A DNA stretch of 64,000 nt, taken from contig MSGZ01000023.1 of the NCBI GenBank assembly GCA_001940925.1, positions 1 through 64,000 on the forward strand, written 5' to 3'. The translations under genes and the position numbers were made by a program. The DNA is from Ruminococcus sp. Phil11. GTDB taxonomy: Bacteria; Bacillota; Clostridia; Oscillospirales; Ruminococcaceae. Below the pieces are notes generated by a model that worked only from the letters and a program-made list of their open reading frames with translations, had not been told where the DNA came from and searched no databases. How positions within the stretch are numbered: the stretch's first letter is position 1; every line of letters begins with the position of its first letter. Shown in pieces: positions 26,545-51,494 of this stretch.

Positions 26545-26596
26545 ACGGCAGCCGCACAGGAAACAGCGTACCCTGCACCCTGCATCTGCATAAAGG

Positions 26597-26636
26597 GCAA
26601 GCATCCGTGACACAAATCACGGATGCTTGCTCTTTT
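26597..26636. terminator. Bidirectional terminator between the dockerin gene and the lipid operon
   Basis: A perfect 14-bp stem (GCAAGCATCCGTGA at 26597-26610 with TCACGGATGCTTGC at 26617-26630) followed by TCTTTT. Confidence 0.9.
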
Positions 26637-26639
26637 CGG

Positions 26640-27848
26640 TTATTTTGCGGTATCGTTTTTCAGGGAACGGGAACAGGCGATCACGCCCGCTGCGGCAAGC
26701 AGCAGGATAATCGCGATGAGCTTGACCGGCTCGACCGCAGTACCGCTCCGGATGCAAAGAAAGCTGAGCACGGCAGCCATCATGTAGCCGGCCAGCGTCG
26801 CCTCTGTCATGGCTTTATTGTATCGGCCGACCAGCCCGCGCCCGGCTGCGGAAAAGTTGACGTAGTACCGGCTGCCGGAGAGGAAAATGCCGTTGCCGAT
26901 GCCGCTCAGCACCGCAGCGGCGGTCAGCAGTACAGGCGAGCTGCTGTGCAGAACGATGATCATGCCGAGTGCCGCAGCCATTGCAAGCGGCGCGGCCGGC
27001 CGGAGCTTCCAGAGCTTCATCGCCGGGAACAGCCCGATCACCAGCGCGGAGACCAGCACCGTTCCCGCAAGGAACAGGCTGCTTTTCACCGCATAATCCG
27101 CAACAAGCAGGTGATCCTTCATGATGTAGGCCACAGACGGCATCAGCGTGTTCGTGGCGCAGTACATCAGAAAGGTATAAACAAGTGCCGTCCGGTCAGC
27201 CCTCTGCACGGATGCGGGTGCTGCTCCGGCAGGTGCTTCATCCGCAGCGTCAGCGTGTATTCTGCTGCCTGTGCTGCCGGAATATGCAATATACGCACGG
27301 CTGACAGGCAGATAACAGACCAGCATCAAAATCACGGAAAGCAGAATACAAAGCCGCGGCGAGGCCGAAAAAAACGAAAAGAACAGCGGCCCCGCAATAT
27401 AACCGATCATCTGATAGGTCAGCAGAATGCGCACATTTTTTTCGCGGTCGTCGTCGGAGACCGTACCGGAAATGAACACATCAAAAACATTGTACAGGAA
27501 ATTCAGGCAGAAGCTTGAAATGCCGAACATTACCATATAGAGCAACGAATGCTGCACAAGGAACATCGCGGCAAAGGTCAGGCAGAGCGCAAGTGCCATG
27601 CCCGCGGTCAGCAGAAGCCGGTTCCGTCCCGGTGCCTTTTTTTCATTGCTGCGCCGGATGATCCGCGACGACAGCATAATGCCGAACATCGTGCAGAGTG
27701 CGCTGATAAACAGCGCGACCGCAACAAGCGTTTCCTTCTTCTCCGGATAATAGGCGTCATAAAACATCTGCACCGCAATGTTCCGGATCCCCGCGGAAAA
27801 CACAGATGTGGAAAGATACACCAGATCGCGCAGGAGCTGCTTTCTCAC
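26640..27848 (-). CDS. MFS-type membrane carrier, last gene of the lipid operon
   Basis: 402 residues with about 11-12 hydrophobic segments and a charged central loop (~190-215), the layout of the major facilitator superfamily. No drug or sugar signature is obvious. It starts 2 nt after the CDP-alcohol phosphotransferase stop. In the Aas/LplT system an MFS carrier flips lysophospholipids for re-acylation; the acyl-ligase/PlsC fusion in the same operon makes a similar lipid-transport job plausible, but that is inference from context. Confidence 0.75.
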   Translation of the reverse strand: MRKQLLRDLVYLSTSVFSAGIRNIAVQMFYDAYYPEKKETLVAVALFISALCTMFGIMLSSRIIRRSNEKKAPGRNRLLLTAGMALALCLTFAAMFLVQHSLLYMVMFGISSFCLNFLYNVFDVFISGTVSDDDREKNVRILLTYQMIGYIAGPLFFSFFSASPRLCILLSVILMLVCYLPVSRAYIAYSGSTGSRIHADAADEAPAGAAPASVQRADRTALVYTFLMYCATNTLMPSVAYIMKDHLLVADYAVKSSLFLAGTVLVSALVIGLFPAMKLWKLRPAAPLAMAAALGMIIVLHSSSPVLLTAAAVLSGIGNGIFLSGSRYYVNFSAAGRGLVGRYNKAMTEATLAGYMMAAVLSFLCIRSGTAVEPVKLIAIILLLAAAGVIACSRSLKNDTAK

Positions 27849-27850
27849 GC

Positions 27851-28600
27851 TTATCTGCCCTCTTTCTTCAGACGGAAGAACAGGGTGAACGCCATTCTGC
27901 AGACCTCTGCCGCCGCACCGATGATCATCGGGATCATGATGAGGTCAAGCAGCATCACGGGGAAAGTTCCGATATGGAACACCGTGATCGGTCCGAAGAT
28001 GAAATTGATGATCGCAACGACGATATACGAGACATGGATCTCGAACGGGCCGAAGGGCGGGAACGGGAATTCGTTGTAGATCATGATATAATGCATGGTG
28101 CAGAGCATGTGGATGCCGTACAGCGGGGCACCGAACGCGGCAAATTCCAGGTGCCCGAAGGACGACAGGCCGATGAACAGCAGCGTAAACGTGCAGACCA
28201 GTGTATCCGACATGATGTCGAAGAAGCCGCCGCGCAGGGATTTCTGATTGCGCGTTCTTGCCATGTATCCGTCCAGATTGTCGCAGACGATATGCACCAG
28301 CAGTCCGAGGATCGCGGCGAGGAAGAACCAGCGTGAGAACGTCCCGAGGAAGAAGCAGAGCGAACCGGTCAGTCCCGCGATGATGCCGATTGTCGTCACG
28401 ACGTTCGGATGAACCGTCTCCGGGATCAGATACGCGAATTTATACGTGAAATCGGCAAATTTCCGCTCCATAACGCTCGGAACGGTCTTGAGCGGCGCGT
28501 CCTTTGCGCCGGACTGGTCAGGCCGGATGCTGGCGGCTGCCTTCTTCGCCGCCCTCTCCTGCTTTCTGGTCAGCTTGTCATCCTGTTTCAGTTCACTCAT
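27851..28600 (-). CDS. CDP-alcohol phosphatidyltransferase family enzyme
   Basis: 249 residues with the complete family motif DxxDGxxAR(x8)GxxxDxxxD: Asp107, Asp110-Gly111, Ala114-Arg115, Gly124, Asp128 and Asp132. About six membrane segments follow an N-terminal basic extension of ~40 residues. The enzyme joins a CDP-activated alcohol or diacylglycerol to a second alcohol in the inner leaflet. In this operon the CDP donor could come from the nucleotidyltransferase at the promoter-proximal end. The start overlaps the HAD phosphatase gene by 8 nt. The substrate cannot be read from sequence; class I and II family members share the same motif. Confidence 0.9.
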   Translation of the reverse strand: MSELKQDDKLTRKQERAAKKAAASIRPDQSGAKDAPLKTVPSVMERKFADFTYKFAYLIPETVHPNVVTTIGIIAGLTGSLCFFLGTFSRWFFLAAILGLLVHIVCDNLDGYMARTRNQKSLRGGFFDIMSDTLVCTFTLLFIGLSSFGHLEFAAFGAPLYGIHMLCTMHYIMIYNEFPFPPFGPFEIHVSYIVVAIINFIFGPITVFHIGTFPVMLLDLIMIPMIIGAAAEVCRMAFTLFFRLKKEGR

Positions 28601-29213
28601 GATTCTTTTCTCCTTTTTTCATAAGATATGCGCGCAGGCTCTGCTCTGCCCCGCGCCAGTTCTTCACGCGGATCAGATTCTCCGCGGAAATGCCTCTGTT
28701 ATACGGCGCGTCAAACAGCAGCACGCAGATGCCGTTCTCTGCAAGCGTTTTCGCCGTGACCGGGTGATCTTCTATCATCACGCTGACATGATATTGCCGG
28801 CAGTATTTCAGCTTTTCCGCGGCGGCATGTTTCTCATCGCAGAGCAGCAGTTTATCACAGCAAAAGCCGTTGTTCCGAAGCCAGTTCGTCAGTGCGCGGC
28901 GGCTGTACCGCCCGAGCGGCGAATCCGACATGGCAAATTTGCGCGCGGTGATCTGATATATGCTGTGTCCCCCGCGCTTCAGCCGCCGGTATACGCCTGC
29001 GGCATCCGGATAGGGCGGATAGCTCCGGCAGTAATACGGCAGAAACCAGCGCATCCCGAACAGCAGCACCGGCAGTCCGCTGACGCCGAATATCTCCTCG
29101 ACTGTATAGCCGTCCGGATTGACCGGCTTTTTCCGGAAGAACCGGCTCCCGTATTTCAGCATGAAATGCCGGGTATCCAGCAGCACGCCGTCAACGTCAA
29201 TGCCGATCCTCAT
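28593..29213 (-). CDS. HAD-superfamily phosphatase, 5'(3')-nucleotidase-like
   Basis: 206 residues. HAD motif I is IDVDGVLLDT (nucleophile Asp6, acid/base Asp8), motif II is ITARKFA, and an Asp pair near MIEDHP forms motif IV. The shape matches small NT5C/YqfW-like deoxyribonucleotidases, but many HAD enzymes of this size act on phosphorylated alcohols or lipids. It overlaps the ligase fusion gene upstream (ATGA, 4 nt) and the phosphotransferase downstream, so it is part of the same pathway and could remove a phosphate from an intermediate such as a phosphatidylglycerophosphate-type product. Confidence 0.75.
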   Translation of the reverse strand: MRIGIDVDGVLLDTRHFMLKYGSRFFRKKPVNPDGYTVEEIFGVSGLPVLLFGMRWFLPYYCRSYPPYPDAAGVYRRLKRGGHSIYQITARKFAMSDSPLGRYSRRALTNWLRNNGFCCDKLLLCDEKHAAAEKLKYCRQYHVSVMIEDHPVTAKTLAENGICVLLFDAPYNRGISAENLIRVKNWRGAEQSLRAYLMKKGEKNHE

Positions 29214-31828
29214 AATGCCGCCTTTCTCATGTCCGTGACGGCGCGGTACAGCTTTTCCGTCAGCGTATCCGCGGTATCGTCCGGTGCCGGCATGATCGGT
29301 GCGCCGAACGCGATCTTCAGCCGCGGCTTTCTGTGATTTTTGAAATCATAGAACTTCGGCAGGATCGTTCCCGCCGGATAGATCTCATACGCGCCGGTGA
29401 TACAGACCGGCACAATCGGGACACCGGTATCCATGGAAAGGCTCGCGACGCCCTTTTTGAAGCTTCCCATTTCGCCGTTCCGCGTGCGGGTGCCCTCCGG
29501 ATGAATCAAAAACTGCGTGTCGCCGCGGCGGATGACCTGCTCCGCACGCTCCATTGCAGGAGCCGGATTGCCGCTGCGGTCAGTCGGGATGCCGCCGAGC
29601 ATCCGCAGCATCTGCCGTGTGACCGCAGTATCAAGATGCTCCTGCTTTGCCAGACAGGCAACGCGGCTGCAGTCAAGGCGGTCTTTCAGCGCCGTCCACA
29701 CCCAGAGCCCGTCCAGATGACTTTCGTGATTCGGACAGAAAATATAATGCCCGTCCGGACGGAGCTGCTCCGTGCCTGTGATCTCAAAATCATAGAGGCT
29801 GCCGAACATCCGCATCATGCCGTTCAGCAGCAGCATGTCCCTGCGGCGGCGTTCCAGCGGAAAATCCTTCACATCCGCGGTGCTGCTGACGGAACGCCTG
29901 ATATGCTTCTTTTTCACGGTCACATCCGCAAGGTCTCTGACCGTCTCCACGCTGCCGATCAGCTCCATGAGGTCGGTATCGTAGACAGTCTGCAGCTCCG
30001 TGCAGAGCTCGAACATCGTGATCGAGTCGATCGAGAGGTCTTCCGTCAGCCTTGCATCCGGAGTGACCGCTGTATCCTCCGGAACATATTTCCGGACGAT
30101 CTCACAAAATTCTGCCAGATATTCCGGAATATCCGCTGCAGCCTTTATACTGTGCTTCGCGGATTTCTTCTCCTGTACCTTCGCACCTGCATCAAGTGCC
30201 TCGACGATCTGCCGTAACTGATATCGCTTGATCTTGCCGAGGGTCGTCGTCGGCAGCTCCGGAACGGTCAGAATGTCCGCCAGCCGGTACAGCGTACCGT
30301 TGGATTCCGAGCGGCTTCTGAGCTTCTTTTTCAGCTGTTCGATCTCTTTGCTGCTGAGCCCTGCTGACTCGATAAACAGCACAAGATGATCGGTGTGCAT
30401 ATAGTCATCCGGGATGCCGCAGCACGCGACGCGCACATCGCCGCAGACCGCCTGATAGTAGCTGTCCACATCCGGCGCGGAAACCTTGTGTCCGTTGCTG
30501 AGCTGGATCGTCTCCTTGCGTCTGCCGGTGATGTAAAGATAGCCGTCGCGGTCGATATAGCCGAGGTCGCCGGTTTTCAGATAGCCGTCCGGCGTAAAGG
30601 CCTTGCGGGTGCTCTCCGGGTCGCGGAAATAGCCATTCATCATCAGCGCGGATTTCACAAGAATCTCCTCATTCTCAATGCGGATGTCAATGAACGGGAA
30701 CTGCCTGACATTTCCGGCACCTCTGTCCGGATAGCCGTCCTGCACCGAGGAAGCGGTGATCGGGAAGGAAGCCTCCGTCGAGCCGTAAGCATTCAGGAAC
30801 TCGATGCCGAGATCAAGGAAGAACCGCACTGTCTCAAGCTCGCAGGGCTCCGCACCGCAGCCGAGAATGATAATGCGCCTGCCGAGCGCGGGTGCATAGA
30901 ACGGTCTGGTCAGCCAGCGCAGCCGGATGCCGGTGCGCTTCCGGACATACGAGGTGATCCTGCAGCAGACCGTAAACGCCGCACGTACCGGGAACGGCCT
31001 CTTTGCGATCTCCGCCTGCATTTTCTTCTGAATGGTCTCGTAGACCTTCGGGATCATGATCATGTGCGTCGGCTGATACACCTTCAGGCCGAGCGTCAGG
31101 CCGGCTGCGGTCAGCTCGGGCACAAAGCCCATTTCCGCACCGATCATCAGATTGATCTGCATCATCGAAAAGCCTGCAACATGAGAAAGCGGAAGCACCT
31201 GCAGAAAATGCGGCGAATTGTCCGTATAGTTCCCGTAGGTCATGCCGGCCTTCCATGCGTAAAACAGGGACTGATAGGGTACCTCCACGCCCTTGACGCT
31301 GCCGGTCGTGCCGGAAGAAAAAAGAATTGCAATGATGTCCTGTTTGCCGGGAACTTCCGGGATGCTGCGCTGCTTCAGTCCGGGATTCAACTGTTTCAGC
31401 GGCGTATTCCCGGAGAACAGCCTGTATACCGGCAGGGTGTTTTTCAGACCGGGGTCAAGCGTTTCATACAGCGCATCCGTCGTGACGATCATTGAGGGCT
31501 CCGCAAATTTCAGCAGACGGTTCCGCTCCTCGGCGGGCAGAGCCACATCCGGCAGCACTGCGGTATAGCCGAGATATGCAAGTGCCAGCAGCATCGCCGC
31601 CATATCGCCGGAGGGCGGCGTCAGGACCGCGACGCGCTCGCACGGGGAAATGCCGTTTGATTCCAGCACACGCTTCACATGTGCCGTCATGCGTTCAAGC
31701 TTTCGGTAGGTATAAATGCGTTTTTCTTTCTCGTTTATAAGGTTGACGATCGCAGCCTTACCGGGGGTTCTCCGGAATACGCCGTCGAGCTGTTTCCGGT
31801 AATCCTGCTGTCCGTAGGTTTTCATCAA
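29210..31828 (-). CDS. Three-domain fusion: AMP-dependent acyl ligase, acyl carrier protein, PlsC-type acyltransferase
   Basis: 872 residues. Residues ~1-550 are an ANL-family ligase: FSSGTTGSVKG, NAYGSTEASFP and TGDLGYIDRDGYLYITGRRKE. Residues ~570-645 are a carrier domain with LSIDSI, Ser602 being the pantetheine site. Residues ~665-872 are a PlsC acyltransferase with NHESHLD (700-706) and HPEGTR (777-782). The chain could activate a free fatty acid, load it on its own carrier and transfer it to a lysolipid or glycerol-phosphate-like acceptor, as Aas does with separate ACP. The carrier between ligase and acyltransferase is unusual. It overlaps the HAD gene by 4 nt. Confidence 0.9.
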   Translation of the reverse strand: MMKTYGQQDYRKQLDGVFRRTPGKAAIVNLINEKEKRIYTYRKLERMTAHVKRVLESNGISPCERVAVLTPPSGDMAAMLLALAYLGYTAVLPDVALPAEERNRLLKFAEPSMIVTTDALYETLDPGLKNTLPVYRLFSGNTPLKQLNPGLKQRSIPEVPGKQDIIAILFSSGTTGSVKGVEVPYQSLFYAWKAGMTYGNYTDNSPHFLQVLPLSHVAGFSMMQINLMIGAEMGFVPELTAAGLTLGLKVYQPTHMIMIPKVYETIQKKMQAEIAKRPFPVRAAFTVCCRITSYVRKRTGIRLRWLTRPFYAPALGRRIIILGCGAEPCELETVRFFLDLGIEFLNAYGSTEASFPITASSVQDGYPDRGAGNVRQFPFIDIRIENEEILVKSALMMNGYFRDPESTRKAFTPDGYLKTGDLGYIDRDGYLYITGRRKETIQLSNGHKVSAPDVDSYYQAVCGDVRVACCGIPDDYMHTDHLVLFIESAGLSSKEIEQLKKKLRSRSESNGTLYRLADILTVPELPTTTLGKIKRYQLRQIVEALDAGAKVQEKKSAKHSIKAAADIPEYLAEFCEIVRKYVPEDTAVTPDARLTEDLSIDSITMFELCTELQTVYDTDLMELIGSVETVRDLADVTVKKKHIRRSVSSTADVKDFPLERRRRDMLLLNGMMRMFGSLYDFEITGTEQLRPDGHYIFCPNHESHLDGLWVWTALKDRLDCSRVACLAKQEHLDTAVTRQMLRMLGGIPTDRSGNPAPAMERAEQVIRRGDTQFLIHPEGTRTRNGEMGSFKKGVASLSMDTGVPIVPVCITGAYEIYPAGTILPKFYDFKNHRKPRLKIAFGAPIMPAPDDTADTLTEKLYRAVTDMRKAAL

Positions 31829-31907
31829 AAAGAATGCCTCCTGAATTGCTAAAAATCAGCCGTCCGCGGGGAAAACGAAGTCTGAGGCAGCGGGCGCGGC
31901 GATGCGC

Positions 31908-32987
31908 TTACAGCGAATAGAAGCGCAGGAAATCTTCGGTATTGTGAATCCCGTGATCCGCATACCGGAATTCGTCTGTTTCGATGCGGATGCCGTTGTA
32001 CCATTCCAGTACGCGGTTCAGCTCCGGCACATCCGCACCGGCAAACTGCGCGATCTGCACGATGACCGCAAGCCCGAACGAAAAATCCGCCATGAAATAC
32101 CGCGAATGCAGATCCGGCAGGAAGCCGCCCTCCGCAGGGACAGACGGCGTTTTCAGTCCCTTGAACGCCTTGATGCTGCGGATCTTTTCCGTCAGCTGAT
32201 GCGGCGTTTCGCTTTCGTAATGCTCCCGCAGCGATCTTACATGCGAGAGGTCAAACATCGGCAGCGCACGGCAGATATTCTGCACCTCATCGTCACATCG
32301 GAACAGCAGCTCAGAGGTCTCGTCGCTCCATTCCTCATAAAAGAGCGGCAGCGACGGATAAACTTTGCCGGGTCTGTAATCGCCGAACAGCGTCATCAGT
32401 CTTGTGGTATGCAGCACGGGATTCGACGGCGTCAGCGTCAGGTTCAGCATGTTCGGGATCGCCTTGCAGGGGATATCAAAAATGCTGCTGACGAATGCGG
32501 CACACTGTTCCGCTGCGGATGCGGGCAGTGCCGCTGCGTGCAGCTCGGAACGGTACCCGACCGAGCGCACGGTACTCCCCTTTTTCACGAGCCGTGCCAC
32601 AGCCGGTACCCGCTCGATACAGAAGAAGGTGTGCCCCTTTTCGATGCACCGCCGGAAAGCGCATTCGCTGCCGCCGTTTCCCGGCACGACGCCGATCAGC
32701 GCGTCCTTTTTGCAGTATGCATATACAGCGTCCGCAGCCTTCTGCATCTGTGCAGAGGGATACGTCACAAGCACGGCGTCCGCGTCAGCCAGTGCGGTGA
32801 CAGGGTCGTCCGTCGCACAGCGAATCTCGCCCTGATGCGTGAGATTGCCGTTCTCATCGACGATCGTCAGGCACTTTTCAAACATCTCCGGCACAGAGGT
32901 ATACACCGTGACCGCATGACCCTTTTCCGCGCAGTGCACGGCGAACTGCGTCCCGATGTTGCCGCCGCCGATAACCGTAATATTCAT
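31908..32987 (-). CDS. NAD(P)-dependent opine/octopine dehydrogenase-like oxidoreductase
   Basis: 359 residues. It has an N-terminal Rossmann fold (VIGGGNIGTQFAVHCAEKGH) and a C-terminal helical domain in the style of octopine/nopaline dehydrogenases; conserved SNPVLHTTRL and a later LPDLHSRYF lie in the substrate domain. Opine dehydrogenases reductively couple an amino acid with a 2-oxo acid; related enzymes act on ketopantoate or glycerol phosphate. It begins 1 nt after the stop of the nucleotidyltransferase-aminotransferase gene, so they work together, perhaps with the aminotransferase supplying or using the amine. A 79-nt gap without a gene separates it from the ligase fusion. Confidence 0.75.
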   Translation of the reverse strand: MNITVIGGGNIGTQFAVHCAEKGHAVTVYTSVPEMFEKCLTIVDENGNLTHQGEIRCATDDPVTALADADAVLVTYPSAQMQKAADAVYAYCKKDALIGVVPGNGGSECAFRRCIEKGHTFFCIERVPAVARLVKKGSTVRSVGYRSELHAAALPASAAEQCAAFVSSIFDIPCKAIPNMLNLTLTPSNPVLHTTRLMTLFGDYRPGKVYPSLPLFYEEWSDETSELLFRCDDEVQNICRALPMFDLSHVRSLREHYESETPHQLTEKIRSIKAFKGLKTPSVPAEGGFLPDLHSRYFMADFSFGLAVIVQIAQFAGADVPELNRVLEWYNGIRIETDEFRYADHGIHNTEDFLRFYSL

Positions 32988-32988
32988 T

Positions 32989-34803
32989 TCACTTCACCTG
33001 CATTTCCGTTTTCAGCGCAGCGATCAGACGGTCGTTGTCCGCGCTGCCGCGGATCGCGATGCGGATGAACGCACCGCCGCCGAGCTTCTTTGAAAGGTCT
33101 TTGATCAGGATCGAATGCTTCACCAGCAGCAGCTTCGTCAGCTGTGAAGCGGCCATGCCGTTTGTGAGCTCCGCCGTGAAATAATTTGCCTGTGAAGGGA
33201 TCACGCGCAGACCGTCAATATGAGAGAGCTCTGCCGCAAATCTGCTGCGCTCCGCACGGAAGCGGACAAGCGCAGTTTCGTAGTCCTTGTTGTATTTTTC
33301 TGCGATCTGCATATAGAACTCGCCGAAGGAATTGATGTTCCAGATCGCGACGTCCTTTTTCATCGCGGCGATCAGCTCCGTATCACCGGAGGCCAGCACG
33401 CCGAGGCGCAGGCCGGGGACGCCGTAGGATTTCGAGATGCTTTTCATCACATACAGCCGCGGGTATTTGTCGAGTATTTCCTGACGGATCAGCGTCGCAT
33501 CCGGTTCGTCCGCAAAATCGGCAAAGGATTCGTCGATCACAAGGCGGATGCCCTTTTCGGCAGTCCAGTCCGCGAGCCGCAGCAGGTCGGCCTTCGGGAT
33601 ATAGCTGCCGGAGGGATTGTCCGGATTCACCACGACCAGACTGCCGATCTCCTTATCAGCGAAAAAGTGCATCAGGTCATCCGCCGTATAGGAAAGGTCG
33701 GCATTGTGCGGATAAAACGACACAGACTGTGCCGGGTCAAAGCGGTTCGGATACTCCTCAAAGGTCGGCCGGACAAAGCCGGTTCTGCCGCCCAGCTGCT
33801 CCATGAGGGATTTGATCAGCTCCGCCGCGCCGTTCCCGACGATGATGTTTTCCTGCTCTACGCCGAAATTCTTGGCGGCCAGCAGCGCATTGACCTTCAT
33901 GCCGGAGGGGTACTGCGTCAGCAGCTTCTCAAAGCTCGCCTTGATCTCGTCGATCAGACGCTGCGGCGGATAAAACGGATTGACCAGATAGCAGAAATCC
34001 AGCACCTGCGGATACCGCCAATAGCCGCCGTACCGCGACTGGATCAGGCTGACCCTTTCGTCGTCGTCCGGCGCAAACATGGACGCGGCAATGTCAAGGT
34101 CCTGCAGATCGTCGATCTCGTACCAGAGCTGACCGCTGAGCCGCTTTGCCTTGATGACCGGCGTGTCAAGCATCGTGATGACCTTCAGCACCTGCTCGTA
34201 ATACTCATTGTTGCCGAGTGCCTTGGAATAGGCGTCCAGAAACGGGATATAGTGCGTCTCCGAAAAGCGGCGGCTGAACTTGTAGATGTTCACGGTCTTG
34301 TAGTAGCTGCCGATCTCGTTGAAGCGAAATTTGTCCTTGCTGACAAATGTTTCAATATGGTCCTCGTCATCAATTTTGACGCAGGTGCCGTCCATCCAGC
34401 TTTCGTATTTGTCCACCAGTGCCAGCGTATCACGCGGGTCATCAAGCAGAAGGTCGATCACCTCGTCCTCAAAAATCAGGTCAGACTCAAATAAAAGCGT
34501 ATCATCACTGCAAAGCCAGTCCTTCGCCAGCGCGAGCGAATAGATATTGTTGGTCTTATAGTAGATCGGGTTTTCCACATACTCGATCGGCGTGCGGATG
34601 CCGAGCGTATCAATGTACTGCTTCAGTTCCTCCGCCTTATAGCCGACGACAATGACGATCCGCCTGAGCCCCTTTTTCTCGATCTGCCGGAGCATCCTGT
34701 CGATCAGGGTCTCCCCGTTCACCTGCACCATGCATTTTGTATTGCTGCGCGTCAGGTTCTTCAGCCGTTTTCCCATGCCTGCCGCCAAAATTACAGCCTG
34801 CAT
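32989..34803 (-). CDS. Nucleotidyltransferase fused to PLP-dependent aminotransferase (PntC-like)
   Basis: 604 residues. Residues 1-245 are a nucleotidyltransferase with LAAGMGKRLKNLT (6-18), a metal-binding ESD (106-108) and the layout of LicC/PntC cytidylyltransferases. Residues ~255-604 are a fold-type I aminotransferase like HisC/CobD: NPDNPSG at 393-399, DESF at 424-427, PLP-lysine Lys458 in SISKSYGVPGLRLG. The same fusion (PntC) makes CMP-activated 2-aminoethylphosphonate in Treponema and Atopobium, but pepM and ppd are absent here, so the substrate may be a phospho-amino alcohol. First gene of the operon; AAGGA lies 9 nt before ATG and a consensus promoter upstream. Confidence 0.85.
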   Translation of the reverse strand: MQAVILAAGMGKRLKNLTRSNTKCMVQVNGETLIDRMLRQIEKKGLRRIVIVVGYKAEELKQYIDTLGIRTPIEYVENPIYYKTNNIYSLALAKDWLCSDDTLLFESDLIFEDEVIDLLLDDPRDTLALVDKYESWMDGTCVKIDDEDHIETFVSKDKFRFNEIGSYYKTVNIYKFSRRFSETHYIPFLDAYSKALGNNEYYEQVLKVITMLDTPVIKAKRLSGQLWYEIDDLQDLDIAASMFAPDDDERVSLIQSRYGGYWRYPQVLDFCYLVNPFYPPQRLIDEIKASFEKLLTQYPSGMKVNALLAAKNFGVEQENIIVGNGAAELIKSLMEQLGGRTGFVRPTFEEYPNRFDPAQSVSFYPHNADLSYTADDLMHFFADKEIGSLVVVNPDNPSGSYIPKADLLRLADWTAEKGIRLVIDESFADFADEPDATLIRQEILDKYPRLYVMKSISKSYGVPGLRLGVLASGDTELIAAMKKDVAIWNINSFGEFYMQIAEKYNKDYETALVRFRAERSRFAAELSHIDGLRVIPSQANYFTAELTNGMAASQLTKLLLVKHSILIKDLSKKLGGGAFIRIAIRGSADNDRLIAALKTEMQVK

Positions 34804-34872: not shown

Positions 34873-34901
34873 ATTATAGCAAATTCCGTTTGCCGTGTCA
34901 A
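34873..34901 (-). promoter_or_regulatory. Consensus sigma-A promoter of the lipid operon
   Basis: On the minus strand TTGACA (complement of 34896-34901), a 17-nt spacer and TATAAT (complement of 34873-34878). Both boxes match the consensus. The leader to the first gene is about 65 nt. Confidence 0.85.
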
Positions 34902-50469: not shown

Positions 50470-51494
50470 TTGTATTCCTCTCTGACTGCCGCCGTCAGCG
50501 CAAGATTCTCCGTATGAGTACGGACAGCAATTCGGAAATGCTCATTAGTAAGGCCACTGAAATCCGTGCATCTGCGTACAATTATTTTGTGATTATCCAT
50601 GCGGTCTGCAAAATCAGTAGGTGCTTTTATCAGCAAGAAATTTGCAGAACTGTCATAGACCGTCAGCCCAGCATATCGCAGTTCATCTGTCAGAAACTGA
50701 CGTTCCGCGGCAACATAACACACCGTTTTGCTGACCCAGTCAGGGGTCTGCAGCGCGGCGATCCCGGCGGCCTGCGCGGGCACGGAAACACTCCAAAACT
50801 GTCCCGTCTGTCGGATGCACGCCGCCGATCCCGCACACCCGCAGAGCGCATAGCCGAGGCGAAGTCCGGGTATCGCATAGAGCTTTGTAAATGCGTTCAA
50901 GATAATACAATTTTCGTACAGGAACGGACGCAGACTGTACCGTTCCGCATCCTCGGAAAAGCGCAAAAAGCATTCGTCAGATACAAGTAAAACGCCGTAT
51001 TTTCTGCACTTATCAGCGATCATATAAAGCAGCGCAGCAGGGATTCTCTGGCATGTCGGGTTATTCGGTGTACACAGAAAAACCATGTCAAGATCATCCG
51101 AAATCGCAGATAAAAAGCCGTCGGTCAGCTGATAATTATGTTCCGGCGCAAGCACAAATTCCCTGATCTCACAACCGACACCCTGCAGAGCATAGGCATA
51201 CTCGGAAAAGGTCGGTGCACAGAGCAGCGCACGCTTCGGCCGGAACGCACGGACGATCCGGTCAATCAGGTCGGCAGCACCGTTTCCGCAGACGATCTGT
51301 GCGGGTGCAATATGCTCATAATCCGCGAGCGCCGCTGTCAGCTTTACGCAGTCCGGGTCGGGATAACGCACACAGTCCGCAGCGGAGCGAATGATCGCAT
51401 CATACACTGAATCCGGCATTCCGAGCGGATTGATGTTCGCAGAAAAATCAAGCATTTCTGTGAAATTGTATATGTTTCCGCCGTGTATTCTCAT
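50466..51494 (-). CDS. cobD: L-threonine-O-3-phosphate decarboxylase CobD
   Basis: 342 residues from ATG 51494, 10 nt after GGAG; a GTG six nt upstream is less well placed. It is a fold-type I PLP enzyme of the HisC-like group: HGGNIYNF, SANINPLG, TPNNPTCQ, NAFTKLYAIPGLRLGY with the PLP lysine. It makes (R)-1-aminopropan-2-ol phosphate, the linker of the nucleotide loop, used by the adjoining CbiB. HisC aminotransferase activity is the alternative, but the operon makes CobD the best call. Confidence 0.9.
   Translation of the reverse strand: MRIHGGNIYNFTEMLDFSANINPLGMPDSVYDAIIRSAADCVRYPDPDCVKLTAALADYEHIAPAQIVCGNGAADLIDRIVRAFRPKRALLCAPTFSEYAYALQGVGCEIREFVLAPEHNYQLTDGFLSAISDDLDMVFLCTPNNPTCQRIPAALLYMIADKCRKYGVLLVSDECFLRFSEDAERYSLRPFLYENCIILNAFTKLYAIPGLRLGYALCGCAGSAACIRQTGQFWSVSVPAQAAGIAALQTPDWVSKTVCYVAAERQFLTDELRYAGLTVYDSSANFLLIKAPTDFADRMDNHKIIVRRCTDFSGLTNEHFRIAVRTHTENLALTAAVREEYK

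Follow-up and report, generated by a model that had tools for sequence, protein, structure and literature searches.

Here we describe a six-gene operon of Ruminococcus sp. Phil11, which combines a fused cytidylyltransferase/pyridoxal phosphate (PLP) enzyme and an opine dehydrogenase with an acyl-ligase/ACP/PlsC fusion, a HAD phosphatase, a CDP-alcohol phosphotransferase and an MFS protein. It lies on the minus strand of contig MSGZ01000023.1 (assembly GCA_001940925.1), at positions 26,640 to 34,803 of the 64,000 nucleotides that were analyzed as a whole (the window). From promoter to terminator, the features are as follows.

34873..34901, minus strand: promoter, sigma-70-type, TTGACA-17-TATAAT with an extended TG, 12/12 match.
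32989..34803, minus strand: gene 1, 604 aa, fusion of a cytidylyltransferase and a CobD/SMUL_1544-like PLP decarboxylase (Pfam, NCBIfam, alignments, tree, fold).
34069..34803, minus strand: N-terminal cytidylyltransferase domain of gene 1, LicC/PntC type, approximately residues 1-245.
32992..34038, minus strand: C-terminal PLP domain of gene 1, approximately residues 256-604, catalytic Lys458.
31908..32987, minus strand: gene 2, 359 aa, opine dehydrogenase (octopine dehydrogenase/CENDH family).
29210..31825, minus strand: gene 3, 871 aa from ATG, acyl-AMP ligase, acyl carrier protein (ACP) and PlsC-type acyltransferase in that order (PF00501, PF01553, motifs).
28593..29213, minus strand: gene 4, 206 aa, HAD phosphatase, NT5C family (PF06941, 32.5 bits, cut-off 24.8).
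27851..28600, minus strand: gene 5, 249 aa, CDP-alcohol phosphotransferase (PF01066, complete motif).
26640..27848, minus strand: gene 6, 402 aa, MFS membrane protein (PF07690, 41.1 bits, cut-off 33.4).
26592..26635: 19-bp inverted repeat at the operon end, terminator-like, T run on the plus strand.

The six genes and the perfect promoter are located where a sequence-only reading of this DNA had placed them, and its opine dehydrogenase, HAD and MFS carrier families were confirmed. Pfam cut-offs were passed for NTP transferase, class I/II PLP enzyme, Octopine_DH, AMP-binding, Acyltransferase, NT5C-type HAD, CDP-OH_P_transf and MFS_1. There were 13 promoter matches, with 8.8 ± 3.3 of any score expected, and the site at 34901-34873 is the only one matching at 12/12. 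The tight gene spacing that had been claimed holds at four junctions, namely a 1-base gap between genes 1 and 2, overlaps of 4 bases (genes 3/4) and 8 bases (genes 4/5), and a 2-base gap between genes 5 and 6, but not between genes 2 and 3, which are 82 bases apart (79 from an alternative in-frame TTG start of gene 3 at 31828).

Gene 1 had been read as a nucleotidyltransferase-aminotransferase fusion, of which the first half stands and the second does not. The N-terminal half matches PntC (E 6e-15) and LicC (E 1e-14) with the ESD motif aligned, and Glu106 aligns with PntC Glu104, one of the two amine-binding glutamates of PntC; in the same alignment, PntC Glu196 has no match in gene 1. The acidic metal/amine ligands and the homology place this half among the LicC/PntC cytidylyltransferases. 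The C-terminal half groups with SMUL_1544 (PDB 6oux; 34.8% identity), apart from CobD, with 99/99 support on long branches, in a tree of 24 rows that included 18 of the 40 family rows. The PLP lysine, Lys458, is kept in all 40. CobD (TIGR01140) is the best NCBIfam match, albeit at 184.0 bits under a cut-off of 290.55, and the HisC model TIGR01141 reaches 149.1 bits (cut-off 276.55), a cut-off that a HisC-like gene of the same genome (contig C10) also misses with 254.7 bits. In structural alignment (VIA-align), which barely tested the N-terminal half, CobD ties in fold and HisC is lower. At fifteen listed positions, including Tyr272, Leu273, Ser300, Asn393 and Ser426, gene 1 agrees with 6oux but differs from S. 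enterica CobD, the location of these positions in the pocket being unverified; at five it agrees with CobD but differs from 6oux.

A plain transaminase was dropped as a candidate for gene 1 because HisC was lower in both sequence and fold, and a B12-type CobD role was dropped because of the tree and a separate CobD-like gene in the window. The latter, at 50472-51485, scores 275.7 bits (cut-off 290.55) and has 40% identity to an S. enterica CobD segment. SMUL_1544 is a CobD-like decarboxylase converting O-phosphoserine to phosphoethanolamine. Since its C-terminal half groups with this enzyme and its N-terminal half is of LicC/PntC type, gene 1 probably makes CDP-ethanolamine from O-phosphoserine.

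A PF02317 score over cut-off, the fold, the His-Asp dyad and an Arg identify gene 2 as an opine dehydrogenase. The active-site Trp of these enzymes was not seen in the pairwise alignment of gene 2; Trp220 is invariant in alignment A2, at an unverified pocket position. Among 297 family genomes, gene 1 was detected in 8 (E 1e-100 or better) and a gene-2 homologue in 6 (E 1e-10 or better). Both genes are present in four, where they are adjacent (the window, L153, L154 and G248, the last from match positions; P 3e-6), three of the four being from one genus. The remaining gene-2 genomes are G178, with gene 2 at a contig end, and G063, with gene 2 in a LicD locus. One scan of species-representative genomes gave 416 gene-1 relatives, from which 80 loci were kept, mostly of rumen and gut Clostridia. 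Gene 2 directly adjoins gene 1 in 29 of these, always on the same strand and mostly with overlapping or near-touching ends. The 8 family genomes and the first 50 of the 80 loci make up 58 gene-1 genomes, many of them drafts in which absences may be gaps; gene 2 was matched in 27, comprising all five with gene 5 and 22 of the 53 others. Judged from sequence, gene 2 probably adds a carboxyalkyl group to the amine headgroup supplied by gene 1, and as it is found beside gene 1 often, not always, the gene-1 module seems to include N-alkylation frequently, as an optional second step.

An enzyme of the OCD/mu-crystallin family (PF02423) lies by gene-1 homologues in L088 (11816-12781) and 11 other loci, usually instead of gene 2. 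Among 59 loci flanked on both sides by 1.5 kb or more, none has both enzymes near gene 1, 22 have the opine dehydrogenase, 11 have OCD and 26 have neither (P 0.003); across all 80 the corresponding counts are 1, 29, 11 and 39 (P 0.02), and both P values are loose because the loci are related. Such avoidance would fit two alternative imine reductases. Against so tidy a picture, L021, among the 21 loci excluded by the 1.5-kb filter, has both enzymes, and G063 carries OCD (L148 6780-7754) and gene 2 side by side without gene 1 (none at E 1e-100). The wider set in G063 (L148 4776-13312) comprises a LicD pair, a class V aminotransferase-like gene, OCD, the opine dehydrogenase and a CTP_transf_like cytidylyltransferase-like gene, with the aminotransferase and cytidylyltransferase called by eye, and may represent a separate route to a substituent of similar type.

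The acyl-ligase/ACP/PlsC fusion proposed for gene 3 was borne out, with Pfam matches for the ligase and PlsC; the ACP, which has no Pfam match, is assigned from the DSI motif. FSSGTTG, YGST, TGDL, DSI, NHESH and PEGTR are kept in all five copies, and GKIKR in two of five. Gene 4 keeps DxD in 3/3 copies and gave no PDB match in a sequence search. In gene 5 the motif D(x2)DG(x2)AR(x8)G(x3)D(x3)D is complete, as had been stated, and is so in all five copies. Its nearest solved relatives, at weak similarity, are the CEPT1/CPT1 choline/ethanolamine phosphotransferases (E 1e-5, PDB). The genome of the window encodes four CDP-alcohol transferases, which we read as PgsA, PssA (beside Psd), gene 5 and a 40% gene-5 paralogue. 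Orthologues of gene 5 (at least 72% identical) were found in only five of the 58 gene-1 genomes; among the 297 family and 391 class genomes sampled, there was none besides that of the window's own genome. The kinship of gene 5, weak as it is, and its paralogue beside phosphonate genes agree with the earlier proposal that a CMP-activated amino headgroup is moved to a lipid. The further proposal, that the operon would also remodel acyl chains and flip or export the product, was drawn from a resemblance to Aas/LplT and is unsupported: gene 3 scores 133.9 bits with the Aas model NF006386 (cut-off 1221), and for gene 6 no NCBIfam model gave a match.

The gene set recurs, in whole or for the most part, in four other loci: L009, a metagenome-assembled genome (MAG) from sheep omasum; L010, the isolate R. 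flavefaciens XPD3002; and L011 and L012, both MAGs. The complete six-gene order recurs in only two of the 80 related loci (L009 and L010), since L012 is without gene 4 and L011 is rearranged, with genes 3, 5 and 6 divergent from gene 1, gene 4 not seen and the contig stopping just behind gene 1. A truncated gene 2 at the extreme end of another contig of the L011 genome is what would be expected had the assembly been interrupted between gene 1 and gene 2. The promoter sequence is identical in L009, a TTGACA/TATAAT site likewise precedes gene 1 in L011, and near-consensus sites, judged by eye, precede it in L010 and L012. Between the window and L009, identity is 94-97% across genes 1-3, and nonsynonymous divergence (dN, 0.015-0.063) is below synonymous divergence (dS, 0.14-0.39) for all six genes, with the weakest contrast in gene 4 (0.051 vs 0.144). 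The operon genes are thus under purifying selection. Elsewhere, a gene-1 homologue broken into two reading frames of 381 and 218 aa was observed at L064 10001-11821.

Homologues of genes 3, 5 and 6 accompany gene 1 in 4 of the 80 loci, and 76 are without lipid genes, some of these loci being incomplete; the gene-1 module is coupled to lipid enzymes in a small R. flavefaciens group. Within two genes of gene 1, the 59 loci with flanks of at least 1.5 kb contain LicD (16), Wzx (10), the CDP-glycerol-transferase-like group C6 (11) and the YidC-sulfatase group C10 (5); one LicD and one C10 member were named by Pfam, and Wzx and C6 by the look of their sequences. Such surroundings could suit a gene that provides a CDP-activated substituent for the cell surface. 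An excerpt of PMC9630907 lists N-[(R)-1-carboxyethyl]ethanolamine phosphate as an O-polysaccharide component, and CDP-ethanolamine is accepted by a LicD-type transferase according to an excerpt of PMC11982090.

The 40% gene-5 paralogue sits in a sister operon of PlsC, acyl ligase, B12-binding radical SAM and transferase genes, which we examined at ten loci (L126 8512-13043, L128-L133, L158-L160; an eleventh in the L009 genome is not among them). Ppd and/or Ppm follow directly in five, a PntC-like gene alone in one and none of these in three, including the window's own genome, and one reaches a contig end. L158 is without the acyl ligase. The radical SAM proteins match HpnR, BchE and PhpK models, all under cut-off. 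From its gene content, together with an Fe-ADH whose best score, under cut-off, is with a phosphonate-cluster model, the sister operon reads as a CMP-hydroxyethylphosphonate lipid operon, which would support the same logic in the window, a CMP-activated head being moved onto a lipid that an acyl ligase and PlsC help to make. A conserved protein of 206-237 aa follows the sister transferase in 8 of the 10 loci (L128-L130, L132, L133, L158, L159 and L131, 10036-10677), and its 213-aa L131 member gave no Pfam, NCBIfam or PDB match. The phosphonate cluster of the window genome is located at L125 7886-12148 (G000 contig C10) and consists of an NTP transferase + CTP_transf_like + phosphoenolpyruvate (PEP) mutase triple fusion, Ppd and an Fe-ADH.

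From the families, the fold and active-site residues of genes 1 and 2, the motifs of genes 3-5, the linkage of genes 1 and 2, and conservation, we infer substrates, order of steps and product as follows. The C-terminal half of gene 1 would decarboxylate O-phospho-L-serine to phosphoethanolamine, which the N-terminal half would convert with CTP to CDP-ethanolamine. Gene 2 would join the amine, either phosphoethanolamine or CDP-ethanolamine, to an alpha-keto acid, for which pyruvate is the simplest candidate, and reduce the imine with NAD(P)H. Gene 3 would activate a fatty acid, load it on its own ACP and use it in acylation to phosphatidate, from which gene 4, at a guess, may remove phosphate to give diacylglycerol. 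Gene 5 would transfer the phospho-headgroup from CMP to diacylglycerol, and gene 6, again as a guess, may move the lipid or an intermediate across the membrane. In our estimate, there is close to an even chance that the product of the operon is a phospholipid headed by an N-(1-carboxyalkyl)ethanolamine, of which phosphatidyl-N-(1-carboxyethyl)ethanolamine is the likeliest form. The latter is identical with phosphatidyl-N-(2-hydroxyethyl)alanine, reportedly described in rumen protozoa by Kemp and Dawson (1969). Neither a paper on this compound nor genes for its headgroup were found among the matches listed in the literature searched.

Alternatively, the end product might be plain phosphatidylethanolamine, or its ether form, reached through a bacterial version of the CDP-ethanolamine pathway, with gene 2 serving another function. 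CDP-ethanolamine is already expected from gene 1 alone, and choline/ethanolamine phosphotransferases are the best solved kin of gene 5. We consider this unlikely, as the genome already has a Psd with a CDP-alcohol transferase adjoining, in line with the sequence-only reading, which had set this operon apart from the phosphatidylethanolamine route, and as gene 2 occurs in all five lipid-operon genomes and begins 1 base after gene 1 in the window. The CobD-like half could also act on O-phosphothreonine, giving N-carboxyalkylated (R)-1-amino-2-propanol phosphate as the head; the 184-bit CobD match, the tie in fold and the five CobD-like positions fit this, but sequence and tree favor SMUL_1544, fifteen positions are 6oux-like, and the separate CobD-like gene at 50472-51485 also speaks against it, leaving it similarly improbable.

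Doubt of another kind concerns the acceptor. The activated group may go to a glycan or another non-diacylglycerol acceptor, the operon then being a surface-glycolipid or secondary-metabolite cluster. LicD, Wzx, glycosyltransferase or CDP-glycerol-transferase-like genes near gene 1 in many of the 80 loci, and the use of CDP-ethanolamine by a LicD-type transferase (PMC11982090, in excerpt), agree with this. The sequence-only reading had itself held that homologues of its gene order with a proven non-lipid role would refute a lipid product. Gene 1, often with gene 2, does lie mostly outside lipid operons and often near LicD/glycan genes, which goes half of the way to such a refutation, although we know of no proven role for these homologues. 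However, this operon is without LicD or glycosyltransferase and has PlsC and a CDP-alcohol phosphotransferase instead, so a non-lipid acceptor has only a small chance. A phosphonolipid, for which gene 1 would turn phosphonoalanine or phosphonoacetaldehyde into CMP-aminoethylphosphonate, is very unlikely. Its attractions are the PntC-like N-terminal half of gene 1, the linkage of the gene-5 paralogue to phosphonate genes, a PEP-mutase fusion that four loci (L030, L054, L064, L067) carry close to their gene-1 homologue, and Ppm in four of five lipid-operon genomes, including the window's. Nevertheless, Ppm (TIGR02320) is over cut-off in only 12 of the 58 gene-1 genomes; it was not found in 46, with some absences possibly being draft gaps, among them R. 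flavefaciens XPD3002, carrier of all six genes, making phosphonate unlikely as a general gene-1 substrate. The Ppm of the window genome is moreover fused to its own NTP-transferase and located elsewhere, with Ppd and Fe-ADH.

The predicted N-carboxyalkylethanolamine route resembles the Kennedy pathway in the CTP activation of phosphoethanolamine and the use of a CDP-alcohol phosphotransferase onto diacylglycerol. It differs in that phosphoethanolamine would come from phosphoserine decarboxylation, not ethanolamine kinase, and in having a LicC/PntC-family cytidylyltransferase and an intervening opine dehydrogenase. Tde1415 of Treponema denticola, a fusion of PntC with aminoethylphosphonate (AEP) transaminase, likewise has an N-terminal LicC-like cytidylyltransferase fused to a substrate-supplying PLP enzyme (excerpt of PMC6697681), but the PLP half of gene 1 is CobD/SMUL_1544-like (class I/II), not a class V AEP transaminase, and the Ppm supply of such a fusion was not found in the 46 genomes mentioned. 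SMUL_1544 of Sulfurospirillum multivorans, which serves norcobamide synthesis, was solved as a 393-aa chain without a cytidylyltransferase half. Gene 2 shares the fold, His-Asp dyad and Arg of octopine dehydrogenase/CENDH, yet it is physically tied to an aminoalcohol-phosphate activator and its predicted amine is without an alpha-carboxylate. As in Aas-LplT, an AMP ligase and PlsC are on one chain with an MFS protein in the same operon, whereas gene 3 has the order ligase-ACP-PlsC with a built-in ACP and falls far under the Aas cut-off.

More tentatively, and rather short of an even chance, these observations may reflect a modular route. The fused enzyme would convert phosphoserine to CDP-ethanolamine and the opine dehydrogenase would form CDP-N-(1-carboxyethyl)ethanolamine, to be passed by LicD-like transferases to glycans in many gut Clostridia, or to diacylglycerol in the R. 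flavefaciens group, giving phosphatidyl-N-(2-hydroxyethyl)alanine; the sister operon would do likewise with CMP-hydroxyethylphosphonate, giving phosphonolipids. The novelty is in the combination, the parts themselves being of known kinds. No description of such an operon, or of the sister operon, was found among the matches listed in the literature searched, most subscription papers being outside the search. If true, the proposal would provide bacteria with a de novo route to CDP-ethanolamine, independent of both phosphatidylserine and free ethanolamine. It would also provide genes for the N-(1-carboxyethyl)ethanolamine phosphate headgroup, which is known chemically from bacterial O-polysaccharides and also from rumen lipids. 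With gene-1 relatives at 416 places, the function of gene 1 would re-annotate a widespread family.

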